From Acidobacteriales bacterium 59-55 (GTDB taxonomy: Bacteria; Acidobacteriota; Terriglobia; Terriglobales; Acidobacteriaceae): 64,000 nucleotides of DNA. Positions 1 through 54,942 of the stretch are shown piece by piece. The stretch is taken from the NCBI GenBank assembly GCA_001897435.1, contig MKSV01000004.1:1-64000 (forward strand), in the 5' to 3' direction. The position numbers and the translations under genes were made by a program. Each line of letters opens with the position of its first letter. Within the stretch, counting starts at the first letter, position 1. The notes under the pieces are model-generated. The model saw only the letters and a program-made list of their open reading frames with translations. It had not been told where the DNA came from and did not search any database.

Positions 1-25
1 CATGGGTTCTTCCTCGCCTCTACAA

Positions 26-80
26 CCCGGGTGCCCCATCCATCGCGTCTTTTGCGATGGGTGGGAAGTAAATCTCTCCC
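26..80. repeat. Family B hairpin repeat
   Basis: CCCGGGTGCCCCATCCATCGCGTCTTTTGCGATGGGTGGGAAGTAAATCTCTCCC. Confidence 0.88.
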
Positions 81-154
81 ACACCTCCGGAGTTCCTATC
101 CATCGCGCCATGCGATCGATAGGAAGCACGACCGCAACAGCCACCCTGCTTAAG

Positions 155-174
155 GGCACGGCTTCAGCCGTGCC
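155..174. repeat. Family D hairpin GGCACGGC-TTCA-GCCGTGCC
   Basis: Perfect 8-bp arms, TTCA loop. Confidence 0.85.
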
Positions 175-215
175 GCAAACTCCCCCGTCCGCAAGGGACT
201 TTAGCCCCTGAGGTC

Positions 216-1010
216 CTACTTCTTCAACGAATAACTAAAGTCAACCGTATCCGTCACATGAGGCTTCACCGTCACCGTCAACGTCTGCTCGCCCATCTTC
301 TCGTGAACCGCTCCCAGCGTATACGTCCCCGCCGGCAGCCCCTTGATCTCGAAGTGCCCCTTGGCATCGGTCACCGCAAAAAACGGCGTCGCCGACACAT
401 TGATAAACGCGTTCATCCACGGATGATTGTTGCAGCGCACCGGCATCATCAGCTCCGGCGCGTCGAAAGTCCTCACCTGCGGCGCGCTCCTCGGTGCCTC
501 GGAGACATCGATCTCCTTGTTGCCGCCCGCCGTCGGCAGGGTATGGATGTTGTGCATCGTCCCATCCGAGTTGCGAAATTCCACCGCTCCGCCCTGCATC
601 ACTCCCACCACATGCGGCACATACCTGCAGCCCACCTGGTCGAGCACCACCGGAGCCGTCGTCGCCGCGGGAGCCGACATCGCCGCCGCCGGTCCGCTCT
701 TGACGTAGATAAAGACGTTGGCCAGCCTGCCGTCATCGACGACATACTGCTCGGCAAAGTTGTCGCCGCCCAGCATCGAGCACACCGGGTCCTGGCTCAT
801 GTCGATGCGCAGCCGCTTCGGCGCCTTGCCGATGAAGCTCACCGTTCCGCTCACCGCGCCCAGCGTCGCCGGATCGAGCGGCACAGAAGACCGGGCGGCG
901 GCAGGCCTCGCACTCTCCGTCGCCTGCTCCTTCGGAGGATTCGGTTTGCACCCGGCCAGCATTCCTGCCACCATCACTCCCGCCATCAGCCAACCGAACC
1001 CCTGCCTCAT
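216..1010 (-). CDS. Lipoprotein with cupredoxin-like/carboxypeptidase-regulatory-like region
   Basis: 264 aa ORF; lipobox-like LAGC at the N-terminus; 'MHNIHT...CNNHPWMNAFINVS' plastocyanin-like segment and C-terminal 'GHFEIKGLPAGTYTLGAVHEKMG' regulatory-like fold. Confidence 0.75.
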   Translation of the reverse strand: MRQGFGWLMAGVMVAGMLAGCKPNPPKEQATESARPAAARSSVPLDPATLGAVSGTVSFIGKAPKRLRIDMSQDPVCSMLGGDNFAEQYVVDDGRLANVFIYVKSGPAAAMSAPAATTAPVVLDQVGCRYVPHVVGVMQGGAVEFRNSDGTMHNIHTLPTAGGNKEIDVSEAPRSAPQVRTFDAPELMMPVRCNNHPWMNAFINVSATPFFAVTDAKGHFEIKGLPAGTYTLGAVHEKMGEQTLTVTVKPHVTDTVDFSYSLKK

Positions 1011-1057
1011 CGCAACCTCGCTTTCGTCGATAGTTATAAAAAATCAAACAAAAATCA

Positions 1058-1200
1058 CGCCATCTCAACCGCAACCATGCGTCCATTCAAAAATCACGTC
1101 ATCTCAACCTCAGCCCATCTCGAAACCCAAAAATTACGTCATCTCGACCGAAGCCGCGCGGCATCATCGCGCGGCGAAGCGGAGAGACCCCTGTATTTCG
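1058..1200. repeat. Family A intergenic repeat with two extra left-arm copies upstream
   Basis: CGYCATCTCRACC at 1058, 1097 and 1137, then full element ...GCCGCGCGGcatcatCGCGCGGCGAAGCGGAGAGACCCCTGTATTTCG. Confidence 0.9.
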
Positions 1201-1265
1201 CCTTTATCCATGCCGACCATCGCAATCATTAGACGACGCTCGCAGCCAACCGCCGAAATTCGCCT

Positions 1266-2357
1266 CTAAGCCTGCGCCTTTACCGGCGTCTCCATCGCCC
1301 GTAGCACCGCCTCGGCAAACTCCCTCGTCCCGCTCGTGCCGCCGACGTCCCGTGTCAACGTCCGGCCCTCGCGATACACCTGTTCCAGCGCATCCTGCAC
1401 CCGCGCCGCCGTCTCGCTCTCGCCGATATGATGCAGCATCAGCACCGCGCTCTGCAGCAGCGCTGTCGGGTTTGCCAAATTTTTCCCCGCGATATCCGGA
1501 GCCGACCCATGCACCGCCTCGAAGATCGCGCATTCGGTCCCCAGGTTCGCGCCCGGCACCAGCCCCAGCCCGCCCACGAACGCGCTGCACAGATCGCTCA
1601 AAATATCGCCGTACAGATTCTCCGTCAGCAGAATGTCGTACTGATAAGGATTCATCACCAGCTGCATGCAGGTGTTGTCCACGATGTGCTCGCGATACTC
1701 CACCTCCGGAAAGCCCTCGGCGACCGTCTGGCAACAGCGCAGAAACAGCCCGTCCGACAGCTTCATAATGTTCGCCTTGTGGATGGCGTGAACCTTCTTC
1801 CGCCCCTGCCTGCGCGCATAGTCGAACGCAAACTTCGCAATCCGCGTCGAGCCCTTCTCGGTGATGATCTTCAGCGCCTGCACCACCCCCGGCACGACTA
1901 CATGTTCGAGCCCGGCGTACAGGTCCTCCATATTTTCGCGCACAATAATCAGGTCGATGTCCGGATAGATCGTCTTCAATCCGGGCAGGCTCTTCACCGG
2001 CCGAAAGTTCGCGAACAGTTCGAACTTCTGCCGCAGCGCCACGTTGATCGAAGCGAAGCCGCCGCCCACCGGCGTCGTCACCGGACCCTTCAGCGCCACC
2101 CGGTTCTCTTCGATCGAGTCGTAGAGCGCCTTCGGAATATACTCGCCCGTCGTCTCGAACGCCTCGGCCCCCGCCGCATACCGATGCCACTCGAACGCCG
2201 CCCCGGTCGCCCGTCCCGCCGCTTCGACGATGCTCACCACCGCCGCCGAAACCTCCGGCCCGATGCCGTCGCCCGGAATCAAGGTAATCCGATGCGTCCT
2301 GCGCTTCGGAGTTTTCGCAGCCTTGGAACTCTTTGAACTCCCCGGACTCTTCACCAT
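1266..2357 (-). CDS. Isocitrate/isopropylmalate dehydrogenase family protein (NAD-dependent isocitrate dehydrogenase-like)
   Basis: 363 aa; ITLIPGDGIGPEV N-terminus, 'FANFRPVKSLPG', 'DIDLIIVRENMEDLYAG', 'FEAVHGSAPDIAGKNLANPTALLQSAVLML'. Confidence 0.93.
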   Translation of the reverse strand: MVKSPGSSKSSKAAKTPKRRTHRITLIPGDGIGPEVSAAVVSIVEAAGRATGAAFEWHRYAAGAEAFETTGEYIPKALYDSIEENRVALKGPVTTPVGGGFASINVALRQKFELFANFRPVKSLPGLKTIYPDIDLIIVRENMEDLYAGLEHVVVPGVVQALKIITEKGSTRIAKFAFDYARRQGRKKVHAIHKANIMKLSDGLFLRCCQTVAEGFPEVEYREHIVDNTCMQLVMNPYQYDILLTENLYGDILSDLCSAFVGGLGLVPGANLGTECAIFEAVHGSAPDIAGKNLANPTALLQSAVLMLHHIGESETAARVQDALEQVYREGRTLTRDVGGTSGTREFAEAVLRAMETPVKAQA

Positions 2358-2359
2358 CG

Positions 2360-2833
2360 CTACCGCCGTTTCTTATGGTCCTTCCCGCTCAACAACTCTT
2401 CCAGCTCGGCCTTGAACTCGCGCACGTCCTTGAAGTCCCGATAGACGCTCGCAAACCGGATATAGGCCACTGTATCGATATCCTTGAGCCGCGACATAAT
2501 CTGCTCGCCCACCTCGCTGGTCGAGCGCTCGCGCTCCGGCGAATCGACCACAAAGGCCTCCGTCTCGTCGACGATCTGCTCCAGCTTCACCGCCGGCACC
2601 GGCCGCTTCTCGCAGGCATGGAGCAGCCCGCTCAGCACCTTCTGCCGGTCGAACTTCTCGCGCCGGCCGTCCTTCTTCACCACCATGTAGGGAATCTCGT
2701 CGATGCGCTCGTAGGTGGTAAACCGCTTGTGGCAGCCCTCGCACTCGCGCCGCCGGCGAATTGACTCCGCCTCTTTACTCTCTCGTGAATCGACAACGCG
2801 ATCCTGGGCAAAACCACAGTAGGGACACTTCAT
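2360..2833 (-). CDS. nrdR: Transcriptional repressor NrdR
   Basis: 157 aa; MKCPYCGFAQDRVVDSRESKEAESIRRRRECEGCHKRFTTYERID zinc ribbon plus ATP-cone. Confidence 0.98.
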   Translation of the reverse strand: MKCPYCGFAQDRVVDSRESKEAESIRRRRECEGCHKRFTTYERIDEIPYMVVKKDGRREKFDRQKVLSGLLHACEKRPVPAVKLEQIVDETEAFVVDSPERERSTSEVGEQIMSRLKDIDTVAYIRFASVYRDFKDVREFKAELEELLSGKDHKKRR

Positions 2834-2883
2834 CGGATTGCCTCGATTCTAGCAGCGCATCTCTCCCCCACAGCACCCCTTGT

Positions 2884-2915
2884 TTGTCATTCCCGAAGGG
2901 AATCCGCGTTTCGCC
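2884..2915. repeat. Family E repeat, truncated, fused to a family C hairpin
   Basis: TTGTCATTCCCGAAGGGAATCCGCGTTTCGCC then GGGTGCCCC... Confidence 0.82.
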
Positions 2916-2947
2916 GGGTGCCCCATGTCCCGCCTCTGGGACATGGG
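2916..2947. repeat. Family C hairpin (CCCATGTCCC/GGGACATGGG)
   Basis: GGGTGCCCCATGTCCCgcctctGGGACATGGG. Confidence 0.92.
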
Positions 2948-2968
2948 ATCTCTCCCAACCCCAACCGC

Positions 2969-3025
2969 CCGGGTGCCCCATCCATCGCGGCCGTATGCGA
3001 TGGGTGGGAAGTAAAATCTACCCGC
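2969..3025. repeat. Family B hairpin repeat
   Basis: CCGGGTGCCCCATCCATCGCGGCCGTATGCGATGGGTGGGAAGTAAAATCTACCC. Confidence 0.9.
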
Positions 3026-3054
3026 CTTCCTCAACCTCCGCCCCCTCACCCGCC

Positions 3055-3110
3055 GCGGGTGCCCCATCCATCGCGGCTTTATGCGATGGGTGGGAAGTAA
3101 AATCTACCCG
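3055..3110. repeat. Family B hairpin repeat
   Basis: GCGGGTGCCCCATCCATCGCGGCTTTATGCGATGGGTGGGAAGTAAAATCTACCCG. Confidence 0.9.
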
Positions 3111-4153
3111 CTTTCCTCCACCCCCGCCCCCTCCCCCGCAGCCTCACTCTCTTCCGCCACCGCCTTCAGATTCACATGCTCCACCCGCGCATACACTAGT
3201 CCCGTCGGCAGAATCGACAGCGAAGTCACCACCAGCAGCACCGCGCCGCACGCGGTCGCCGCTTCAATCGGCGCGCCGTAGAACTCATGCATCGCCGTCG
3301 CCGTCACCGCAATCTGCGTAAACCATCCGATGATCGGCGGCTGCAGCGCCGATCCGCCGAGGCTCGCCGCCATCAGCAGCATGGTCCGCGAAAACGTCAG
3401 CCCCGCCAGCTCCGGCGTCAGCACAAAGGCGTGCGCCGTCTGCACATACGCCATCCCGATCATCCCCCACATCGCCAGCGACAGCGCCACCGCCAGCGCG
3501 AAGTCGCGTAGCGACGTAAACGTGTTCAACCCGTCGCGGAACCCGAGGATCTTCGTGGCGATGCTCTCCGCCGCCGGCTTCGACAACCGGCCCAGCGTCG
3601 CCCGCGCAAACCCGGCGACCACGCCGCCCGACACCCGCACGACGACCGCAAACGCCGCAATCGCCAGCGTCAGGGCCAGGCTCATCTCCCCGGCCCGCAC
3701 AAAGATCTCATGATGCGGAAGGTCCTTCGGCGTCAGCGCCATGGCGCTCGAAAACACCACGGCGACCGCTCCCAGATCGAACATCCGCTCGATGGCGTAG
3801 ACTCCGACCTGCGAGCTGAGCGGCAGCCCCACCCGCCGCGACACCAGGTACGGCCGGGTCAGGTCGGCCAGCCGTCCAAACAGCGCCACGCCCGCGAACC
3901 CGATGAACTGTGGCCCCAGCAATACATGCGTCGGAACCTTCTTCACCGGCGCCAGGAAGATGGCCCATCGCCACGACCGCAGCCAGTAGGTCGCATAGAT
4001 CAGCGCAATGCCCGCCCAGATGTGGATCTGGTCCACGTTCCGCAGTTGGCGCCGGAACATCGCCCAGTCGAAGTGCGCCCGCCACAGCGCCAGATCGACC
4101 AGCGCCAGCACCACCAGCGCCGCGACCCACACCCATCGATTCCGTTTCTTCAT
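3104..4153 (-). CDS. Flippase-like integral membrane protein (lysylphosphatidylglycerol synthase TM region / UPF0104-like)
   Basis: 349 aa multi-TM ORF; 'LLGPQFIGFAGVALFGRLADLTRPYLVSRRVGLPLSSQVGVYAIERMFDLGAV' typical of the family. Confidence 0.85.
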   Translation of the reverse strand: MKKRNRWVWVAALVVLALVDLALWRAHFDWAMFRRQLRNVDQIHIWAGIALIYATYWLRSWRWAIFLAPVKKVPTHVLLGPQFIGFAGVALFGRLADLTRPYLVSRRVGLPLSSQVGVYAIERMFDLGAVAVVFSSAMALTPKDLPHHEIFVRAGEMSLALTLAIAAFAVVVRVSGGVVAGFARATLGRLSKPAAESIATKILGFRDGLNTFTSLRDFALAVALSLAMWGMIGMAYVQTAHAFVLTPELAGLTFSRTMLLMAASLGGSALQPPIIGWFTQIAVTATAMHEFYGAPIEAATACGAVLLVVTSLSILPTGLVYARVEHVNLKAVAEESEAAGEGAGVEESG

Positions 4154-4230
4154 CCCGCGCTCTCTCGGAAGCTGTAGAAAATCAAAAGAATCATCTCAGC
4201 CAACCATAAACGTCAGCCCATCTATAAAGA

Positions 4231-4443
4231 AAGCACGTCATCTCGAAAGAAAGCGCGTCATCTCGACTAAAACGCACGCGACTCAGACTCAAGAGCAACG
4301 TCATCTCGACCAAAACGCGTGCGACTCAAACTTAAGAGCACGTCATCTCGACCGAAGCCGCGCGACCCAAACTCAAGAGCACGTCATCTCGACCGAAGCC
4401 GCGCAGCTTCATCGCGCGGCGCAGTGGAGAGACCCCTGTATTT
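4231..4443. repeat. Family A left-arm near-tandem array ending in a full element
   Basis: Exact CGTCATCTCGA at 4236, 4256, 4299, 4341, 4382; units of ~41-43 bp sharing '..GACTCA(A/G)ACT(T/C)AAGAGCA'. Confidence 0.92.
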
Positions 4444-4526
4444 TGTCCTTGTCCTTGTCCTTGCCCTCGCCGTTGCCGTTGCCTTTGCACTTGCACTTGC
4501 ACTTGCCGTTGCAGTTGCCCTTGCCT
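4444..4526. repeat. Hexanucleotide low-complexity tract (TTGYNC)n
   Basis: ttgtccttgtccttgtccttgccctcgccgttgccgttgcctttgcacttgcacttgcacttgccgttgcagttgcccttgcc. Confidence 0.9.
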
Positions 4527-4534
4527 CTGGGTAC

Positions 4535-4554
4535 GCCAAGGCTTTAGCCTTGGC
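4535..4554. repeat. Family D hairpin GCCAAGGC-TTTA-GCCTTGGC
   Basis: Perfect 8-bp arms, TTTA loop. Confidence 0.85.
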
Positions 4555-4575
4555 TTCTCTCCTGCCAAAAAATAA

Positions 4576-4591
4576 AGGGGCTTCAGCCCCT
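4576..4591. repeat. Family D hairpin AGGGGC-TTCA-GCCCCT
   Basis: Perfect 6-bp arms, TTCA loop. Confidence 0.85.
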
Positions 4592-4645
4592 GGGGTATGT
4601 CTTTGATCGCATCTGAACCTGGCCGCAGAGACCGGCCCTCCTCTT

Positions 4646-5374
4646 CTACCGCGCCTGCGCCACCAGCGCCGCCTGCTTGCGCCGGTTGAACTCGCGAATC
4701 ACCCGCGCCACGTAAGCTTGCGTCTCCCGGTATGGAGGAACCCCATGATACCGGTCCACCGCCGCCGGCCCCGCGTTGTACGCCGCCAGCGCCAGCGCGA
4801 TATTGTCGCGATACCGCGTCAGCAACTCATCCAGGTACGCCGTCCCGCCCGCGATGTTCTGCTCCGGACGAAACGCGTCCTCGACTCCCATCTCGCTGGC
4901 CGTCTTCGGCATCAGTTGCATCAGCCCCTGCGCCCCCGCCCGCGACACCGCGCGCACCTGGCCGCCGCTCTCCGCCTTCATCACGCTGGCCAGCAGATCG
5001 GTATCGATATGGTGAGCCTCGCCCGAGTGCGCCAGCATCTCGTGGATCTCGGCGCGTGTCGGCGCAGCCGCCTCCACTACTTTTGCAGTAGTCTTCACCG
5101 CGGGCCGGGGCACATCGGCGACCGTCTCCACGCGGGCAATCGCACTGCCTGCAACCTCGATGTAATTCGCATCCGCGCCCGAATTCGCCGCCCGATGATC
5201 GCCGAGATAAAGCCGAACCTTGTCGCCGACCGCCTCGCGCCGAACGCAGTCCAGCTCAAATCCATTGCGCAACGTCACATGCTCGGCCGCCCGCGCCAAC
5301 GGACACACCGTCAACGCCAACGCAAAGATTGCGAACCCGCTCCGAACTGCGCCAAGCTTCATCGCCACCCTCAA
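4646..5374 (-). CDS. Lytic transglycosylase (SLT domain)
   Basis: 242 aa; signal peptide; 'LLASVMKAESGGQVRAVSRAGAQGLMQLMPKTASEMGVEDAFRPEQNIAGGTAYLDELLTRY...ALAAYNAGPAAVDRY'. Confidence 0.95.
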   Translation of the reverse strand: MRVAMKLGAVRSGFAIFALALTVCPLARAAEHVTLRNGFELDCVRREAVGDKVRLYLGDHRAANSGADANYIEVAGSAIARVETVADVPRPAVKTTAKVVEAAAPTRAEIHEMLAHSGEAHHIDTDLLASVMKAESGGQVRAVSRAGAQGLMQLMPKTASEMGVEDAFRPEQNIAGGTAYLDELLTRYRDNIALALAAYNAGPAAVDRYHGVPPYRETQAYVARVIREFNRRKQAALVAQAR

Positions 5375-5465
5375 AGCCTACCACCGCCGCCCCTGGCACT
5401 CGACCGCTTTATAGAGGAGACACGGAAACATCATCTCGACCAAAGGCCCGCATCAACCCAAACCT

Positions 5466-5520
5466 GCGTCATCTCGACCGAAGGCCCGCAGGGCCGCAGC
5501 GGAGAGACCCCTGTATTTCA
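5466..5520. repeat. Family A repeat, GGCCC-gca-GGGCC stem variant
   Basis: CGTCATCTCGACCGAAGGCCCGCAGGGCCGCAGCGGAGAGACCCCTGTATTTC. Confidence 0.9.
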
Positions 5521-5539
5521 TCTCCCACTGCTTCCCTTC

Positions 5540-5611
5540 TTGTTATTCCCGAAGGGAATCTGCGTTTTGCTCAAATCCACAAGGCTCCCTCTGGAGGAGA
5601 ACCCCTCTAAA
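5540..5611. repeat. Family E ~70-bp repeat
   Basis: TTGTTATTCCCGAAGGGAATCTGCGTTTTGCTCAAATCCACAAGGCTCCCTCTGGAGGAGAACC; matches reverse complement of 49986-50057. Confidence 0.85.
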
Positions 5612-5621
5612 CAAATCGAAG

Positions 5622-5678
5622 CCCGGGTGCCCCATCCATCGCGCTTTTTGCGATGGGTGGGAAGGAATATCTCTCCCC
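5622..5678. repeat. Family B hairpin repeat
   Basis: CCCGGGTGCCCCATCCATCGCGCTTTTTGCGATGGGTGGGAAGGAATATCTCTCCCC. Confidence 0.9.
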
Positions 5679-5770
5679 GCCGCTCAGGAAATCGTCGCAA
5701 ACGGAAGCAGAACTTCCCCGGAGAAGACCTGAACGCCCCAGAAAAGATATAACCACAGAGAAAATATAGT

Positions 5771-5837
5771 CACGTCATCTCGACCGAAGCCGCGCGGTTG
5801 TATCGCGCAGCGCAGCGGAGAGACCCCTGTATTTCGC
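5771..5837. repeat. Family A repeat, long stem variant
   Basis: CACGTCATCTCGACCGAAGCCGCGCGGTTGTATCGCGCAGCGCAGCGGAGAGACCCCTGTATTTCG. Confidence 0.9.
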
Positions 5838-5880
5838 CCCCATCCCCACAGCCATCACCCTATCGCTTCGCCGGCGTCTC

Positions 5881-5938
5881 CGCCGGGTGCCCCATCCATC
5901 GCGCTCTTTGCGATGGGTGGGAAGGTAGATCTCCCCCC
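5881..5938. repeat. Family B hairpin repeat
   Basis: CGCCGGGTGCCCCATCCATCGCGCTCTTTGCGATGGGTGGGAAGGTAGATCTCCCC. Confidence 0.9.
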
Positions 5939-5963
5939 AGCCGCCGAAAAACCGTCTTTATCC

Positions 5964-6902
5964 CTAAGCCTTCACCGGCGTCTCGGCCATAACCGCCTCA
6001 ATCGCCTCCGCCACCCCGTCCTCGTCATGCCGCCGCCCCACAGCCCACCCCCGCTCCGCCGCCTCCTGCTTCAGATCGTCCGGAGCATTGCCCATCAGCA
6101 CCCTGTGCCCGGCCATCTCCAGCATGGAAAGATCGTTCCAGTTGTCCCCGATGGCCAGAATCTCCCCCGCGCCCAGCCCGCGCCGCGCCGCCAGCCGCAG
6201 CAGCGCCGCTCCCTTGCTGCACCCCGCGGGCAGAATGTCCACGATGCTCAGGTTCCGCTCCGGATACTCCGTCCGGTGCAACGCAATCTCTGCGTCCAAA
6301 GCTGAGTCCGCGCCAACCGCGCAAACCCCCGGATGATCGAGCAGCCGCGCTTCGGCCGTCCGCATCCGCTCGATCGTTCCGCAGATCATCATCTGGATCG
6401 GAGCCTCGCCCTCAAGCGCCCGCTCGATCGGCGCGACATGTGAGATATACGGCTCGTTAGCCGCCATCCATCGGCTGATGCTTCCGTTCAGCTCTTCCAG
6501 ATCTTCGACCACAAGAGCGCCACGAGCGTCCTCGCCATTCTCTCCGGTCCGGTCGAAGGTAATCACCAGGGCGTTGCGAAACTCGTCCATGTGCGCGCAC
6601 AGCCGCCGCGCCGCATCCGGCTGCATCAGCGTCCGCTCCAGCAGCCGCGCCCCCAGCGTCCGCGTCACCGTGCCGTTCGAACTGACCAGCGCATTCTCTT
6701 CGTTCAGGTCCAGCCCGCGCAGTTGCCGCATGGCATAGCAGTGCCGCCGCCCGGTCGCCACTACGACCTCGATGCCGGCCCGCTCGGCCGCGTGCAATGC
6801 GGCGAGGTTCCGTGCGCTGACGTGGCCATCCGAACCCAGCAGGGTACCGTCCATGTCGACGGCAATCATTCGGACCGGCGCGGAGGAGATGTCCTTCTGC
6901 AT
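5964..6902 (-). CDS. Cof-type HAD-IIB family hydrolase
   Basis: MIAVDMDGTLLGSDGHVS motif, 'GCSKGAALLRLAARRGL...LAIGDNWNDLSMLEMAGHRVLMGNAPDDLK'; start chosen at MQKDISS (ATG at 6902). Confidence 0.92.
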   Translation of the reverse strand: MQKDISSAPVRMIAVDMDGTLLGSDGHVSARNLAALHAAERAGIEVVVATGRRHCYAMRQLRGLDLNEENALVSSNGTVTRTLGARLLERTLMQPDAARRLCAHMDEFRNALVITFDRTGENGEDARGALVVEDLEELNGSISRWMAANEPYISHVAPIERALEGEAPIQMMICGTIERMRTAEARLLDHPGVCAVGADSALDAEIALHRTEYPERNLSIVDILPAGCSKGAALLRLAARRGLGAGEILAIGDNWNDLSMLEMAGHRVLMGNAPDDLKQEAAERGWAVGRRHDEDGVAEAIEAVMAETPVKA

Positions 6903-45107: not shown

Positions 45108-48100
45108 ATGTCGAAAGAAATCTATATCTCCAGCACGCCGCACGAGACGCGGCTCGCCATCGTCGAAAGCGACGACCTCACCGAAATTTATTACGAACGC
45201 GAGAACGAGTACACGCTCGCCGGCTCCATCTACAACGGCCGCGTCACGCGCGTTCTCCCGGGCATGCAGTCCAGCTTTGTGGACATCGGCCTCGAACGCG
45301 ACGCCTTCCTCTATATCACCGACTTTATGGAAGAGGCGGGCGACTCCGCCGACTTCGACACTAACGGCGATCACTCCCGCGGCGGGCGCTCCGACAATCG
45401 CCGCAACGGCAACCGCGAGCCTGCCACGATTGAAGGCACCGTTGGCGCACCGGCAGAAGACTCGGGCAACCGGTCTGAACGCGGTGACCGCAACGGCCGT
45501 GGCCGCGGCCGCAACGACCGGCGCAGAGGCAATCGCGACCGCCAGCCCGGCGCTGAGAGTCCACAGTCGACCGAGAGCGCGGAGGCCGCGCAGATGGATT
45601 TCAACGAGGAGAGCGACTTCGGCCCTCATCCGGACAATCTTTCGGCTGAGCCTCGCGACAACGGTGAGATCGGCGAAGGCGCTCCCGGCGCGGACGGCAG
45701 CCGCCGCTGGCGTGGCCGCCGTGGCCGCCGCCGTGGCCGTAACGGTCAGCGCGATGTTTCCGCGCAGGCAGGCAGCCCGGAACTGCAGCAGGATTCGCAG
45801 CAGGAGGCCGCTGCCCCTGAGTATTTCGAGGACCGGGCCGAGGGTGGGGAAGAGAGCGGCGGCGAGAACGAGTACGACTCCAACGTCGACCTTGAGGCTG
45901 CGGGTGAATCGCCCGCTCCGCGCAACTCCGCTCCCATCGCCGATGCCTATCCGGCAGCGGAGGCCGGGCAGGAAGACGCCGAGCCGCGTGACCGGAGCGA
46001 GCGCTCCGACCGTGGAGATCGCGGCAGGCGCAATGATCGCGGTGGCCGCAATGGCCGCGGCGGACGGGATCGCGGCCGGGATCGTGATGGGGGCCAGCGC
46101 GCTCCTCGCGGCTTCGCTCCCCGTACCTCTCACTATGGCGTAGACGATGCTCCCTACGGCGACTCCCCGACTGGGGACGGTCCTGTGCCCGAGCCGATCG
46201 TGCTTCCCGGCGAATCGCTCTCGAAGTACCGCAAGGATGGCGGCGAGTCCCAGGAGTCCGCGAAGGCAGCCGAACCGACCATCATCCTGCCCTCGAATCC
46301 CGGCTTTGAGATTCCCGCCGGATGGGATGGCGGCGAGACGCTTCCCGGCGAGACGCTGTCGCGCCGCAGCCGCCCTGAGTCTCGGGAATCCCGCGAGCCC
46401 CGCGAGTCCCGTGAACATGGAGGGAACCGGCGCGAACACCGCTCCGACTCTCGCGCCGGCCTTCGCGACGATCACGCCACGCTGCCCGAAGCCTTCGAGG
46501 CCGAGCCCATCGAACTCGCCGGGCACGCTGCAACACAGGCTCCTGCCGAGCAGATTCACGAGCCCGTTCCGCCTGCCGAGTACGAGCCGACGGATGCCTC
46601 CGCTTCTTACCGTGTCGATCCTGCCGCGCCCAGCGAGTTCCGCCAGAGCGCCCCGGTGATCGAAGAGACGCAGGAAGCGCCGGCCGAGTTCGCTCAACAG
46701 GCAGACGAGCACGCCGCCGAGCATGCCGCCGAGCCCGTCGCGCACGAGATCACCGCCATTCACGCCACCGGCGAGATGGAGACCGAGCCTCCGGCCGCGG
46801 CCTATACGCCCGAGCAGGAGGCCGAACCGGCGTCTCCGCTGCGGCACGAGACCGCGATTGCCAATCCTGCTGAGAACGCCGTGGAAGACGGCATCGAGCC
46901 CGTGCATCAGCACTTTGCTCCCGGCGCGGGCGAACTGGAAGAGGAGATCCTCGAAGAGGACGAATATCCCGCCACGCTTCAGGCCAGTTCGGTCGAGGAA
47001 TTGGATGAAGAAGAGACTCTCGAAGGGGCTGCCGACCTCGGCACCATGATCCGCGAGATGTCGATCGACGAGATCACCGGCTCCGGCACCGGAGAAGGGC
47101 CGAATGCCGCGGATCTCGACGAGGATGGCGACGAAGAAATTGAGGAGGACGACCTCGAAGAGGAAGACTCCTTCGACGACGGCACGCATGAGTACGAGGA
47201 AGACCTCGAAGAGTCCGACGGCGAGGACGAGTCGGAAGATGAAGAGATTCACGAAGAAGGTGGTGAGTCCGCCGAAGAAGGCGAGTCCGCCTCCGCCAAC
47301 GGCTTCGATCGCTCCCAGGCCGCCGCGCCCGGTTTCGAGCCTCGCCGTGATGGGGGCCGCAACCGCCGCGATGGCCGTCGTGACGGACGCCGAGGAGACC
47401 GTGGCCGCAGCGACCGTCCCCGCTATACCGGCGGCTCCGGCGACCGCGAGCGCAGCGGAAGTGGGGGCCGCGACCGTCGCGGCGGACGCAACTCCATGCA
47501 GACGACCAACCTGCCCGCCATCAGTGAACTGCTGAAGCCGGGCCAGGAAGTTCTCGTCCAGATCGCCAAGGAACCCATCGCCAAGAAGGGCGCGCGCATC
47601 ACCTCGCACATCGCCCTTCCCGGCCGCTTCCTGGTCTTCATGCCGACGGTCAACCACACCGGCGTCTCACGCAAGATCGAGTCCGACGCCGAGCGCCGCC
47701 GCTTGAAGGAGATTCTGCTCAGCGAAAAAGGCGAAGCGTCGGGCGGCTTCATCGTTCGCACCGCCGCTTCGGGGGCCAGCGAAGAGGAACTGCGCAGCGA
47801 CCTCCGCTTCCTGCTCAACCTCTGGGCCGACATCAAGCAGCGCTCGGAGTCGAGCAAATCCCCGGCTCTGATCTATCACGATCTGAATCTGGTCGAGCGT
47901 ATCCTGCGCGACCAGGTTACCGACAACTTCTCCGCCATCTGGGTCGACACCGAGACCGAGTACGAGCGCGTCCTGCGTTTCCTGCAACGCTTCCAGCCGT
48001 CGCTCATCCGTCGCGTCAAGCTCTACACCAAGGAGACGCCGCTCTTCGAGCAGTTCGGCATCACCGAGGAGATCAACAAGGCGCTGCGGTCCAAGGTCTG

Positions 48101-48710
48101 GCTCAAGTCCGGCGGCTCGATCGTTATCAACCAGACCGAGGCGCTGGTCGCCATCGACATCAACACCGGCAAGTACGTCGGCAAGACGGCCCGGCTCGAA
48201 GACACCATCGTCAAGACCAACCTCGACGCCATCCCCGAGATCGTCCGCCAGATCCGTCTGCGCGACCTTGGCGGCATCATCATCATCGACTTCATCGACA
48301 TGGACGAGCGCAAGAACCGCAACCGGGTCATGGCCGCGCTCGAAGAAGAGCTCAAGAACGACCGTGCTCCGTCGAAGGTGCTTCAATTCAACGACTTCGG
48401 CCTGGTCGCCATCACCCGCAAGCGGGTCAAGCAGTCGCTCGAACGCACCCTCTCCACCACCTGCGGTGTCTGCCAGGGAACCGGCATGACCAAGTCCCCG
48501 GTCACCGTCTGCAACGACATCTACGTCGAGATGCGCAAGATGCAGAAGCATCTCGACCGCGGCGACGTCATGCTTCGGGTTCACCCCGATGTCGTCAAGC
48601 AGCTTAAATCCAGCACCAAGTGGCTGCAGGAGCTGGAAGAGATGGTCGGCAAGACTATTCTCGTCAAATCCGATCCCAGCCTTCACCCCGAGCAGTTCGA
48701 TATTCACTAA
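45108..48710 (+). CDS. Ribonuclease E/G (Rne/Rng family) with very large insertion in S1 domain
   Basis: N-term 'MSKEIYISSTPHETRLAIVESDDLTEIYYERENEYTLAGSIYNGRVTRVLPGMQSSFVDIGLERDAFLYI'; catalytic 'ALVAIDINTGKYVGK...DLGGIIIIDFIDMDERKNRN'; Zn-link-like 'CGVCQGTG'. Confidence 0.96.
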   Translation: MSKEIYISSTPHETRLAIVESDDLTEIYYERENEYTLAGSIYNGRVTRVLPGMQSSFVDIGLERDAFLYITDFMEEAGDSADFDTNGDHSRGGRSDNRRNGNREPATIEGTVGAPAEDSGNRSERGDRNGRGRGRNDRRRGNRDRQPGAESPQSTESAEAAQMDFNEESDFGPHPDNLSAEPRDNGEIGEGAPGADGSRRWRGRRGRRRGRNGQRDVSAQAGSPELQQDSQQEAAAPEYFEDRAEGGEESGGENEYDSNVDLEAAGESPAPRNSAPIADAYPAAEAGQEDAEPRDRSERSDRGDRGRRNDRGGRNGRGGRDRGRDRDGGQRAPRGFAPRTSHYGVDDAPYGDSPTGDGPVPEPIVLPGESLSKYRKDGGESQESAKAAEPTIILPSNPGFEIPAGWDGGETLPGETLSRRSRPESRESREPRESREHGGNRREHRSDSRAGLRDDHATLPEAFEAEPIELAGHAATQAPAEQIHEPVPPAEYEPTDASASYRVDPAAPSEFRQSAPVIEETQEAPAEFAQQADEHAAEHAAEPVAHEITAIHATGEMETEPPAAAYTPEQEAEPASPLRHETAIANPAENAVEDGIEPVHQHFAPGAGELEEEILEEDEYPATLQASSVEELDEEETLEGAADLGTMIREMSIDEITGSGTGEGPNAADLDEDGDEEIEEDDLEEEDSFDDGTHEYEEDLEESDGEDESEDEEIHEEGGESAEEGESASANGFDRSQAAAPGFEPRRDGGRNRRDGRRDGRRGDRGRSDRPRYTGGSGDRERSGSGGRDRRGGRNSMQTTNLPAISELLKPGQEVLVQIAKEPIAKKGARITSHIALPGRFLVFMPTVNHTGVSRKIESDAERRRLKEILLSEKGEASGGFIVRTAASGASEEELRSDLRFLLNLWADIKQRSESSKSPALIYHDLNLVERILRDQVTDNFSAIWVDTETEYERVLRFLQRFQPSLIRRVKLYTKETPLFEQFGITEEINKALRSKVWLKSGGSIVINQTEALVAIDINTGKYVGKTARLEDTIVKTNLDAIPEIVRQIRLRDLGGIIIIDFIDMDERKNRNRVMAALEEELKNDRAPSKVLQFNDFGLVAITRKRVKQSLERTLSTTCGVCQGTGMTKSPVTVCNDIYVEMRKMQKHLDRGDVMLRVHPDVVKQLKSSTKWLQELEEMVGKTILVKSDPSLHPEQFDIH

Positions 48711-50135: not shown

Positions 50136-51761
50136 CTAGATCCCAATCGGATAGGGCTTCTCGTGCATCTCCTGCCCGGCGTTTCCGCTGCGTTCGAACC
50201 GTCCCTGCAGCAGGCTCAGCAGGCCCGTGTACCAGTAGCCGAAGACGAACAATAGCAGGAACGGCACGGTAAAGAAGTTCTCCGTCGACACGGCATACCA
50301 GACTGTCCACGCGAAGTAAGCGCCCAGCCCCAGCTCGATCCACGGCACGATACCCAGCCGCTTGCGGTAGACCTTGGCCTGGGACTTCTCGCCCTTCTGC
50401 TTCACCCTGTACTTCGGAGTCCGCGCAAACGCGCTCTTCACGCCGAACAGCGCCTCCATCACGGCCTTGGTGTTGGTGATGGTCAGGCCGATGCCGCCCA
50501 GCGCCAGCAGAAAGGGCACATAGAGGATCTTCTTGTGCCAGGCATGGGGGAACAGCTCCTTCTGGCTGACGAGGTAGAACGTCGAGACCGACATCGTGCT
50601 CGCCATGAACAGGGGGAAGTCGATCAGCAGCATTTGGAGATAGCCCTGCCAGCTTCGGATAATCATCGCCGGCATCAACAGAACGCTGAGCACGATCATG
50701 AGCGGGTAGCTGATGTTCGCCGTCAGGTGATACCACGCCTCCAGCTTGGTGTGCCAGCCCGCGTCGCTCCTGAGCACCTGCGGCAGAATCTTCTTCGCCG
50801 TCTGGATCAACCCCTTGGCCCAGCGCGCCTGCTGCGTCTTGAAGGCGGTCATCTCGATGGGCAGCTCGGCGGGACACTCGACATCCTGCAGATACTTGAA
50901 CTTCCATCCCACCAACTGCGCCCGGTAGCTCAGGTCGGTGTCCTCGGTCAGGGTATCGTGCTGCCAGCCGCCCGCCTCGCCGATGGTTTTGCGCCGCCAC
51001 ATGCCGGCCGTGCCGTTGAAGTTGAAGAAGACGCCGGAGCGGCTGCGGCCGCCATGCTCGAGCACAAAGTGCCCGTCTAGCAGGATCGCCTCCACCTGCG
51101 TCAGAAAGCTGTAGTTCCGGTTCAGGTGTGTCCACCGCGTCTGCACCATGCCGATCTCGGGCTCGGCAAAGTGATGCACCACCTGCATGATCCACTGCGG
51201 CGGAGGCACGAAGTCGGCGTCGAAGATCGCCACCAGTTCGCCTTTGGCGACATCGAGCCCCTTGTCGAGCGCACCGGCCTTGTATCCGTGCCGGTCGGTG
51301 CGGTGCAGATAGACGATCGGCTGCGGCGCCATTCCCATCGCGCCCGAGGCGTACCGCTCCACCAGATCGCGGGCTACGGTCCGGGTCTCGTCGGTCGAAT
51401 CGTCGAGCAACTGGATCTCGAACCGGTCGCGGGGGTAGTCGAGGTTGCAGATCGCCTCCAGCAGTCGGTCGACGACGAACTGCTCGTTGAAGATCGGCAG
51501 TTGAATGGTCACGAAGGGCAGCTCGCTCTCGGCAAAGCGCGCCGGCGGCTCATCCCACTTCGCCTGGTTCTTTTTATTCCTGTAGTAGAGCCACACCAAC
51601 TGGTAGCGATGGATGCCGTAGAACGCCAGGATCACCATCACGATGAAGTAGGGAATCAGCATGCACGTGTCGAAGGTGTTCCACCGGTAAAGGTGCTCGA
51701 ACGTCTTGTCGGCGTAGTGCGTCTTCCAATAGTGGCCCAGGCCATGCGGAGCCACCAGCAT
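50136..51761 (-). CDS. Family 2 glycosyltransferase, cellulose synthase/CslA-like processive enzyme
   Basis: 'DDSTDETR', 'AIFDADFVPPPQW', 'LTEDTDLSYRA', 'QQARWAKG' (D,D,D,QxxRW) plus TM helices; start ATG 51761. Confidence 0.93.
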   Translation of the reverse strand: MLVAPHGLGHYWKTHYADKTFEHLYRWNTFDTCMLIPYFIVMVILAFYGIHRYQLVWLYYRNKKNQAKWDEPPARFAESELPFVTIQLPIFNEQFVVDRLLEAICNLDYPRDRFEIQLLDDSTDETRTVARDLVERYASGAMGMAPQPIVYLHRTDRHGYKAGALDKGLDVAKGELVAIFDADFVPPPQWIMQVVHHFAEPEIGMVQTRWTHLNRNYSFLTQVEAILLDGHFVLEHGGRSRSGVFFNFNGTAGMWRRKTIGEAGGWQHDTLTEDTDLSYRAQLVGWKFKYLQDVECPAELPIEMTAFKTQQARWAKGLIQTAKKILPQVLRSDAGWHTKLEAWYHLTANISYPLMIVLSVLLMPAMIIRSWQGYLQMLLIDFPLFMASTMSVSTFYLVSQKELFPHAWHKKILYVPFLLALGGIGLTITNTKAVMEALFGVKSAFARTPKYRVKQKGEKSQAKVYRKRLGIVPWIELGLGAYFAWTVWYAVSTENFFTVPFLLLFVFGYWYTGLLSLLQGRFERSGNAGQEMHEKPYPIGI

Positions 51762-52077
51762 CGCGAGCGTGTTCGGGAGCGATTGAACGAAAGAAAACAG
51801 GAGATATCTCCGGCAAAGGTTACTTCGACCGATTCTACGCGAATCGGGCGCTTCGGCAGAATGGCGTCTTCGGTAATCCCTCGGCAAGGAATCGCCGGGG
51901 AACCTGTTTAAAAGCTCAAAGACCACATCCTCTGGACCGGCCCCGCCGCTTCATGGCACGCGAGGTTAACTGCTGCGATTCCGGCGGCGAGACGAGGAAA
52001 ACTCTCTCTTCAATCGCCCTACACTCGAATCGAGCCGCGCCGTGATGGATGCCGGACAGGCTACGGGGAAAATATTG

Positions 52078-53094
52078 ATGAAGCCTTTGATCGCTGCTCT
52101 CTTTGTTGTGTTTGTGTTCGGCAGCCTGAACGCGCAGAAGTTTGTGTGGCAGCCGTCGCCGGGCCATACGCAGGTGCCGATATGGCCGGGAGCGGCTCCC
52201 GATCCTCAGCCTATCGCAGGGCCGGAGTACGCAGTGACAGTCACGGGCAAGGATTTGGTTGCCGGCAAACCGTGGGTTGCGGTGGAGAACGCGTCGCGGC
52301 CTACGATGACTGTCTATCCGCCTAAGGGAAAGAACACCGGCGTCGCGGTGGTCGTGTTTCCCGGCGGCGGCTACACGATTCTGGCCATCGATCTGGAAGG
52401 CTCGGAGGTCTGCGACTGGCTGACATCGAAGGGGATTACATGCGTGCTGTTGAAGTATCGCGTGCCCGGCGAGGGCTTGTATCCGAAGTCGGCGTACCCG
52501 AAGTCGGGGCCGTATCCGGAGTCGCCGATGGCGCTCGAAGATGCGCAGAGGACGATGGGGCTGGTACGCTTTCACGCGGCGGAGTGGCACATCGATCCTC
52601 ACAAAATAGGCGTGCTTGGATTTTCGGCAGGCGGGCATCTGGTCGCGGCGATCAGTAACCACTACGCAAAGCGTTTGTACTCGGCTGTCGATGCCGCCGA
52701 CAAAGAGAGCTGCCGCCCGGACTTTGCCGTGCCCGTCTATCCCGGGCACCTGTCGCTTTCCGCGGCGGAGTGGGATGCCAGGCAGGGCACTAAAAAGTTC
52801 GTGGTTCCACATCCTGCGAATACCGATAAAAATCTTGGGTTGAATCCCAATCTTCATATCACCAGGCAGACGCCGCCCACCTTCCTGCTACAGAATGAGG
52901 ACGATCACGTGGATAACGTCAACGATTCGCTGGCTTACTACGTTGCATTGAAGAACGCCGGGGTTCCCGTGGAGATGCATCTGTATGCGCACGGTGGCCA
53001 CGCCTTCGGACTGCGGCGTACGAAGTTTCCGGCGACGCGCTGGCCGGAGTTGGTGGAGACGTGGCTGGGAACGATCGGCATGATTCCGCAGTAG
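52078..53094 (+). CDS. Secreted alpha/beta hydrolase (acetyl-esterase/BD-FAE-like)
   Basis: 'VVVFPGGGYTILAIDLEGSEVCDWLTSKGITCVLLKYRVP...LGFSAGGHLVAAISNHY...LLQNEDDHVDNVNDSLAYYVALKNAGVPVEMHLYAHGGHAFGLR'. Confidence 0.93.
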   Translation: MKPLIAALFVVFVFGSLNAQKFVWQPSPGHTQVPIWPGAAPDPQPIAGPEYAVTVTGKDLVAGKPWVAVENASRPTMTVYPPKGKNTGVAVVVFPGGGYTILAIDLEGSEVCDWLTSKGITCVLLKYRVPGEGLYPKSAYPKSGPYPESPMALEDAQRTMGLVRFHAAEWHIDPHKIGVLGFSAGGHLVAAISNHYAKRLYSAVDAADKESCRPDFAVPVYPGHLSLSAAEWDARQGTKKFVVPHPANTDKNLGLNPNLHITRQTPPTFLLQNEDDHVDNVNDSLAYYVALKNAGVPVEMHLYAHGGHAFGLRRTKFPATRWPELVETWLGTIGMIPQ

Positions 53095-53098
53095 ACGG

Positions 53099-54049
53099 CT
53101 AGCTTAAAAACATCGTCCGATACAGCGTGTCCCGCTGCACCGGCCTGAAGCCCGCGCCGCGAATGACCCGCCGCAGGTCTTCCTCGGTGGTGCCGTCGCT
53201 GCCCTCGAAGAGGACCGAGCCCACATCGTTGCCGCCGAACCGCAGCGCCATTTGCAGGACCTTCAGCCCCTGCGTCTCCAGGTCGGCCTGCACGTTTTCG
53301 ATGTTGTCGAGCGCCATCCGCGAGATGGCCAGCGTCTTCAGATACTCGACCGCCGTCGGCTTCTCGATGCCGCTGACCCCGGCCGCGCGCGGCTGAAAGC
53401 TCACCGGGGTAAAGGCGGTAAAGCCGCCGGTCTCCTCCTGCAACTGGCGAACGGCCTCCAGGTGATTCACGCGCTGCTCGAAGCTCTCTCCCGCGCCAAA
53501 GGTCATGCCTGCTGTCGTCCGGATTCCCAGCGCATGTGCTTCACGATGTACCTCCATCCAGCCCGGCACCGACCACTTGCCGCGCGCGCCGTGCTGGTGG
53601 ACAGCATCGTCCAGAACGCCCGCGTCGTCGCCGGGAATCGAATCGAGGCCGGCATCGCGCAGCCGCGCGATCGTCTCCCGCACCGTCAGACCGGAGTTTT
53701 GTGCGATCGTCAGAATCTCGCTCGCGGAAAAACAGTGCAGCCAAACGGCAGGGAACTGCTCCCTGACTCCGGCCAGCAGACGCTCGTACCCGTCGATCTT
53801 TTCGGTTTTCTGCTCGGAATCGACGGCTTCGCGCAAAGTGACGCCAGTGGCACCCCTGTCCACCGACTCGCGAATCCGCTCGCAGACGGCTTCGAAGTTT
53901 ACGCCTCCGCAGTCAATCTTTCGCTCGATGATGTAACTGGCCACACCCTCGGGATGCAGTCGCCGCCGCACCGCGTCGGCCTCCATGCCAATGCCAATCA
54001 AATCATCGCTGTTGAAGCAGTCCAGAGCTTGTTCGCGGCTAATCCCCAT
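53099..54049 (-). CDS. MqnC-like (dehypoxanthine futalosine cyclase family) protein lacking the radical-SAM CxxxCxxC motif
   Basis: 316 aa; 'SDDLIGIGMEADAVRRRLHPEGVASYIIERKI', 'LRDAGLDSIPGDDAGVL', 'HREAHALGIRTTAGMTFG', 'QEETGGFTAF', 'EYLKTLAISRMALDNIENVQADLETQGLKVLQMALRFGGNDVGSVL', 'GFRPVQRDTLYR' match the MqnC pattern; no CxxxCxxC present. Confidence 0.85.
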   Translation of the reverse strand: MGISREQALDCFNSDDLIGIGMEADAVRRRLHPEGVASYIIERKIDCGGVNFEAVCERIRESVDRGATGVTLREAVDSEQKTEKIDGYERLLAGVREQFPAVWLHCFSASEILTIAQNSGLTVRETIARLRDAGLDSIPGDDAGVLDDAVHQHGARGKWSVPGWMEVHREAHALGIRTTAGMTFGAGESFEQRVNHLEAVRQLQEETGGFTAFTPVSFQPRAAGVSGIEKPTAVEYLKTLAISRMALDNIENVQADLETQGLKVLQMALRFGGNDVGSVLFEGSDGTTEEDLRRVIRGAGFRPVQRDTLYRTMFLS

Positions 54050-54096
54050 CCTTCGATTCTACGATGGAGATGTACAGGAGATATCCAGCAGGTGTG

Positions 54097-54477
54097 TTAC
54101 CTGCCGCGCACCAGCAGCACGATCACCGCTGCCAGCAACGCCACGATCAGCGAGACGCCGAGCGTAACCCAACGCTTCAGGCTTGTCATCTGCGACTCCA
54201 GAGCCGTCACCCGCTCCACTGCCGTCGCCAGCCGCTTTACCTCATCGCCTACCCCGGCGATCTGCGCCTTCTGTTCTTCCAACTGGAGATAAAGCCCCGC
54301 GTGGGCCTTCGCCACCTGGCCCAGGTCGCCACGCACGCCCTCGGCCATAGCGGTCATGGCCGCTTCGGTGGCCCGGTCCGTCTTCGCCTTCGACGAGAAA
54401 TATTTGTCCGCCATCGGCAGCACCCGCGCCAGATGCGGAAGCAGCTCGACCAACTGTGCAAGCACTCTAGGCCACAT
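54097..54477 (-). CDS. Hypothetical coiled-coil protein with C-terminal TM helix
   Basis: 126 aa; helical 'QLEEQKAQIAGVGDEVKRLATAVERVTALESQMTSLKR' then 'WVTLGVSLIVALLAAVIVLLV'. Confidence 0.7.
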   Translation of the reverse strand: MWPRVLAQLVELLPHLARVLPMADKYFSSKAKTDRATEAAMTAMAEGVRGDLGQVAKAHAGLYLQLEEQKAQIAGVGDEVKRLATAVERVTALESQMTSLKRWVTLGVSLIVALLAAVIVLLVRGR

Positions 54478-54486
54478 GGATGCCCT

Positions 54487-54942
54487 CTATTTCTGCCATG
54501 CCACTCTTCCGCCGCGCCGCCGATAGATCAGGGTCCCGATCGACAACACCAGGATCGTGGTCATGATGCCCCACGACCATACGCAATAGATACACCACTT
54601 CTCCATGACGAACGCTTCGAGATAGCTCAGAAACGAGGCGAACATAAAGCCGATCTGCGCTGCCTCGAAGACCAGCCACCACCGCCCCATCAGCGCCAGC
54701 ACGGCGATGAGCGCATAGCCGATGATGCCGATCGTCGCCACGGGAATGTGCTTCGTTCCCGGAGCCTCGTCGAAGGTTTTCGGCGGAAAGACCGAGAACC
54801 GGCTGTGGTTGACCGACCCGCAATCCCAATGCTCGCTCACCGCGCAGGGAGGCGCCTTGGCCGGGTCCATGTTATGAATCCGCAGTCCCATCACACTTAC
54901 TGCCAGTCCCGCCAACGCCAGCAACGCCACCAGATATTTCAT
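54487..54942 (-). CDS. Vitamin K epoxide reductase (VKOR) family protein
   Basis: 151 aa four-TM; 'CAVSEHWDCGSVNHSRFSVF' loop cysteines and 'EKWCIYCVWSWGIMTTILV' CxxC. Confidence 0.92.
   Translation of the reverse strand: MKYLVALLALAGLAVSVMGLRIHNMDPAKAPPCAVSEHWDCGSVNHSRFSVFPPKTFDEAPGTKHIPVATIGIIGYALIAVLALMGRWWLVFEAAQIGFMFASFLSYLEAFVMEKWCIYCVWSWGIMTTILVLSIGTLIYRRRGGRVAWQK

Follow-up and report, generated by a model that had tools for sequence, protein, structure and literature searches.

Results

A Cys-less gene at the mqnC locus

The window, the 64,000-nucleotide stretch of DNA analyzed here, carries on its minus strand (53099-54049) an open reading frame that runs uninterrupted from ATG to stop, encodes a 316-aa protein, and is by synteny the ortholog of mqnC. 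The locus is anchored by a conserved downstream neighbor, a family-2 glycosyltransferase gene (GT2, assigned with Pfam; 50136-51926, minus strand), which lies beside mqnC in 27 of the 27 loci compared, irrespective of whether the encoded MqnC is intact or lacks the radical-SAM cysteine motif (Cys-less). Directly upstream is the gene for a 126-aa protein, not assigned to a family (54097-54477, minus strand; conserved in much of the genus), followed by that for a VKOR-family protein (54487-54942, minus strand; PF07884, 77.3 bits), and the same two genes are found in most mqnC loci of the window's genus. The location of VKOR near mqnC suggests a possible link to quinones. Elsewhere in the window, at 45108-48710 on the plus strand, a 1200-aa protein resembles by eye the ribonuclease E/G family and appears, on the same visual inspection, to contain a low-complexity, charged insert of several hundred residues after its N-terminal part.

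The 316-aa protein was matched by the NCBIfam MqnC model TIGR03699 with 261.6 bits, far below the curated cut-off of 428.1, and the alignment was split into two stretches that skip the cluster region. Of the Pfam models, CofH_C scored above its cut-off and the Radical_SAM match was subthreshold. No CxxxCxxC motif was present in any of the six frames of 53001-54200; thus, the first-pass annotation was correct in describing an MqnC-like protein without its radical-SAM cysteine segment, lost in frame, and both a frameshift and a hidden cysteine motif were rejected. Outside the deletion, the protein is 60-65% identical to the intact MqnC of congeners, with which it shares the orthologous locus, the N-terminal cap, the C-terminal region, and the predicted barrel. 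The orthologous position is thus that of an MqnC equivalog, whereas the score, the CxxxCxxC motif, and the SAM and substrate motifs are not.

Motifs lost and retained

The intact MqnC of congeners is 348 aa in length (INYTNFCTEYCTFCAFYRPLKGKLASEGYIL), and its NYTNFCTEYCTFCAFYRPLKGKLASEGYILDF segment is reduced to DCGGVNF in the Cys-less protein. The alignments place the first deletion junction at 53902-53903 (minus strand, as are all positions in this section), where residues 49 and 50 now adjoin and ∼25 residues including CxxxCxxC have been lost, and the second at 53203-53204, where most of EENVVKAAG is lost. Between these junctions, the former MQGG(L/I)HPDL motif now reads LREAVDSEQ (residues 72-80; 53810-53836), the former PGGGAE motif reads PGDDAG (residues 139-144; 53618-53635), and the former FIPWSFQP motif reads FTPVSFQP (residues 213-220; 53390-53413), whereas the FGxGE motif is kept as FGAGE (residues 184-188; 53486-53500). 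The N-terminal helical cap and first barrel strand (residues 1-45; 53915-54049) are retained, as is the C-terminal region apart from the second deletion (residues 237-316; 53102-53341).

The same pattern was seen when Cys-less orthologs were collected from six GTDB genera (34 full-length proteins). The fraction of sites invariant in intact MqnC that these proteins retain was 0.85 for the N-terminal cap (residues 1-42) and 0.75 and 0.83 for the two blocks of the C-terminal region, in comparison to 0.06 for the cluster loop and 0.29 for the surroundings of EENVV. Mostly gone are GGxHPD, the second and third Gly and the Glu of PGGGAE, the Trp of FIPWSFQP, and EENVVxxAAG; FGxGE is kept, and the positions that never vary among the 34 proteins are concentrated in the N-terminal cap and the C-terminal region. 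Replacement of the QGGxHPD region, recorded in the first-pass annotation, therefore extends in large part to the orthologs. The accompanying statement that the remaining core is well kept applies to the N-terminal cap, the C-terminal region, and the fold, but not to the active site; the loss of catalytic motifs beyond the cluster segment had been overlooked.

Predicted fold

An AlphaFold2 model of the Cys-less protein gave a confident barrel (pLDDT 86.4, pTM 0.86), with helices at residues 5-13 and 17-31 and a strand at 36-46. Its best PDB matches were MqnE, BioB, HydE, and ThiH, with MqnE on top (TM about 0.89), so the predicted protein has the barrel fold of the radical SAM superfamily. In the model of the intact protein, the elements follow one another in nearly the same order, and a cluster loop predicted with low confidence is added.

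Selection on the Cys-less form

Most close Cys-less pairs gave pairwise dN/dS values (NG86, over the gene) of 0.06-0.12, and two others gave 0.16-0.21, compared with 0.02-0.06 for pairs of intact MqnC; YN00 values, for the pairs where these were obtained, were similar or lower. Several pairs are near synonymous saturation, which makes the values rough, yet they are far from the value of 1 that would have spoken for a decaying pseudogene, and the earlier judgment that the gene is not decaying is upheld. Because many species share the Cys-less form, including the named isolate Edaphobacter lichenicola M8UP22, an assembly or sequencing error was rejected. The protein thus combines loss of catalytic residues with purifying selection, as expected of a pseudoenzyme.

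Menaquinone genes of the genome

No intact MqnC scoring above the curated cut-off was found in the genome. The gene at the ancestral place is the mqnC ortholog itself, contrary to the suggestion of an extra paralog beside a true MqnC. MqnE is present (contig C7, 1250925-1251971; 500.8 bits, above cut-off), and MqnA and MqnD are represented by two PF02621 proteins. The genome also encodes a third CofH-family protein, here named MqnC2 (C7, 681067-682062), which keeps CxxxCxxC as CVAQCDYC. MqnC2 lies below the MqnC curated cut-off and scores higher with the MqnC model (306 bits) than with that of MqnE (209 bits). Furthermore, it reads NYTN and CAFY, as is typical of MqnC, versus NPTN and CAFG in MqnE, and its CWTFKP includes a Trp, as does FIPWSFQP. 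No conserved neighbors that could serve as an operon clue were found for MqnC2. The classical Men pathway was rejected as a backup, MenD being absent above the cut-off from this genome and from 61 genomes in all.

Distribution of the Cys-less form and MqnC2

In a first sample of 37 genomes of the window's genus, 24 encode a full-length Cys-less MqnC and 11 a Cys-bearing one; the other two have fragments only or no MqnC match. A further MqnC2-type match was present in every one of the 24 Cys-less genomes, and the 10 ordinary intact genomes have MqnC and MqnE only, with no MqnC2 match. The eleventh Cys-bearing genome (G036) combines MqnC2 with a Cys-bearing MqnC. Relatives had been expected to carry CxxxCxxC uniformly at this locus if the deletion were spurious; instead both forms occur in the genus, and which of them a genome carries goes with the presence or absence of MqnC2.

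The survey was extended to 250 genomes taken evenly from the family. MqnC2 was present in 19, of which 17 have a full-length Cys-less MqnC, one (G158) has only fragments on split contigs, and one (G262) has an intact MqnC. About 200 other genomes gave hits with the MqnC2 query that, judged by score level, are as strong as an intact MqnC should produce. Such a match was missing from 31 family genomes; a repeat search of 20 of these revealed no case of a Cys-less MqnC without MqnC2, although several had fragments only. The Cys-less form occurs in genera g1, g34, g56, g80, g82, and g83. A Fisher test of its association with MqnC2 was extreme, a result that counts the split-contig genome as Cys-less and ignores kinship; the strongly supported branches provide four independent pairs, nearly all concordant and too few for significance.

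The MqnC proteins of the two exceptional genomes are themselves unusual. In that of G036, 11 sites that do not vary among the other intact proteins are altered, with N46D, N49H, Y54H, Y61D, and R62H lying beside the cysteines; this protein also reads HPHL in place of HPDL. That of G262 has five changes at otherwise invariant sites, including H102N of HPD. Most other intact proteins show none to four such changes; the long-branched protein of G185 also has 11, but all of these lie outside the motifs named.

In families f2 and f76, MqnC2 occurs in the absence of any MqnC body; therefore, MqnC2 does not always depend on such a partner. It was found in nine f2 genomes (L137-L140) and seven f76 genomes (L225-L230), nearly all with MqnA and MqnD, and neither MqnE nor canonical MqnC was detectable in any of the 16. 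These gene contents suggest a possible futalosine pathway with a substitute for MqnE, or a bifunctional MqnC2. A replacement for MqnE was sought near MqnA, MqnD, or MqnC2, and nothing common to the two families was seen. Genus g48 offers two further observations. In one locus (L156, genome G250; 1-6001), the usual genes are replaced by divergent MqnE-like and MqnC-like genes that lie close together, and genome G224, 99% complete, has no CofH-family match to P0001 at E 0.001 and may have lost the pathway.

Phylogeny of the locus

On the tree of the flanking GT2 gene, seven changes of state are needed, four of them forced by strongly supported branches, and a single Cys-less clade is rejected (p-AU 9e-73); conversion of MqnC to the Cys-less form has therefore probably recurred several times. 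The MqnE tree likewise interleaves intact and Cys-less states. The deletion, which was to be looked for as the mark of a clade, is shared by six genera but does not define one clade on the GT2 tree. In the MqnC tree, one branch (support 99) splits intact from Cys-less proteins, the Cys-less rows being long and the split unreliable. When the g80 or the g82 Cys-less proteins were constrained to group with intact MqnC of the same genus, AU tests on MqnC did not reject the placement, and the score of some constrained trees exceeded that of the free search. Within the family, the MqnC2 sequences form a single clade, which adjoins family f2; the g80 and g82 sequences are nested among those of g1, which suggests that MqnC2 spread horizontally.

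Discussion

We consider it fairly probable that the Cys-less gene is the orthologous mqnC, converted in place to an iron-sulfur-free pseudoenzyme, with MqnC2 now acting as the cyclase and the old scaffold kept as a partner. MqnC2 would have taken over cyclization of dehypoxanthine futalosine, the step before MqnD, and the old MqnC would thereby have been freed from SAM and Fe-S chemistry. Its scaffold would then have persisted in a structural or regulatory capacity, with MqnE or a futalosine-pathway assembly as the most likely partner, contacted by way of the conserved N-terminal cap and C-terminal region. There is a weak hint in the gene contents that MqnE is this partner, because the Cys-less genomes keep MqnE and the f2 and f76 genomes, without MqnE or MqnC, are also without the Cys-less protein. 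A bolder and more tentative proposal is that in this Acidobacteriota family the acquisition of a second cyclase has repeatedly led to conversion of the resident MqnC to an Fe-S-free scaffold subunit that the futalosine pathway needs, through MqnE or MqnC2, with G036 and G262 as intermediates.

A single origin of the Cys-less form, which then spread, without repeated loss, as transferred Cys-less genes displaced mqnC at its own locus, is unlikely. It would account for the branch that sets all Cys-less proteins to one side of the MqnC tree, and the apparent movement of MqnC2 between genera means that a companion could have moved as well. The flanking GT2 tree and the synteny of the locus nevertheless indicate native loci, the AU tests allow the g80 and g82 proteins to join their intact congeners in trees that in some cases score higher, and the two intermediates also count against such a spread. 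Also quite improbable is a new ligand-binding or regulatory role outside menaquinone synthesis, in which the barrel scaffold alone is reused. Loss of the substrate motifs with retention of the N-terminal cap, C-terminal region, and fold would fit such a role, and the VKOR and 126-aa neighbors in much of the genus could be taken as its context, but these neighbors flank intact mqnC too and so mark no new role. Moreover, the Cys-less state appears where another MqnC-type enzyme has arrived, an indication of a role in the same pathway.

Slow decay of a pseudogene was already disfavored and is highly improbable: the Cys-less protein does evolve faster than intact MqnC, additional small deletions are present, and the most divergent copies are short, but dN/dS remains at 0.06-0.2, the frames are open in 34 of 34 collected copies, and many sites are invariant across six genera. 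Among the roles first proposed for the protein, one outside radical-SAM chemistry is likely and that of a partner possible, whereas cofactor-free catalysis is very unlikely because the substrate motifs are lost. That the protein is still the cyclase, as its place at the mqnC locus in a genome without MqnC above the curated cut-off might suggest, is accordingly very improbable, since the SAM motifs went along with the substrate motifs and the cluster, MqnC2 with its MqnC-type residues is present, and the MqnC reaction is radical chemistry.

These genomes provide a natural and apparently replicated series, with an intact radical-SAM enzyme at one end, Cys-free proteins at the other, and eroding intermediates between them; the second MqnC-type enzyme that is the likely trigger is encoded in the genome as well. 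A noncatalytic role of MqnC in menaquinone synthesis thereby becomes testable. For annotation, homology would take a dead enzyme for the cyclase of the pathway, and the analysis points to an uncharacterized MqnC-like enzyme, MqnC2, in lineages without recognizable MqnE. The futalosine pathway in Acidobacteria has already been surveyed (PMC3914697, PMC13386864). Pseudoenzymes are known as a class; in the open literature searched, with subscription journals mostly outside the search, no description of a Cys-less MqnC or of its displacement by MqnC2 was found, and the form is apparently undescribed there.

Among known systems, the nearest solved structure by fold is MqnE, aminofutalosine synthase (6xi9, 6xig; TIGR03700; TM about 0.89), from which the Cys-less protein differs in having only about 22-23% identity and no cluster; the genome has a separate, intact MqnE gene. 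For the proposed partnership, a precedent is Dph1-Dph2, homologous subunits of one radical-SAM enzyme that work together (PMC11048331) and thus an example of two related subunits in a single radical-SAM reaction. Both Dph subunits carry clusters, whereas the Cys-less MqnC is without the whole cluster loop, and a heteromer that includes it is a guess.
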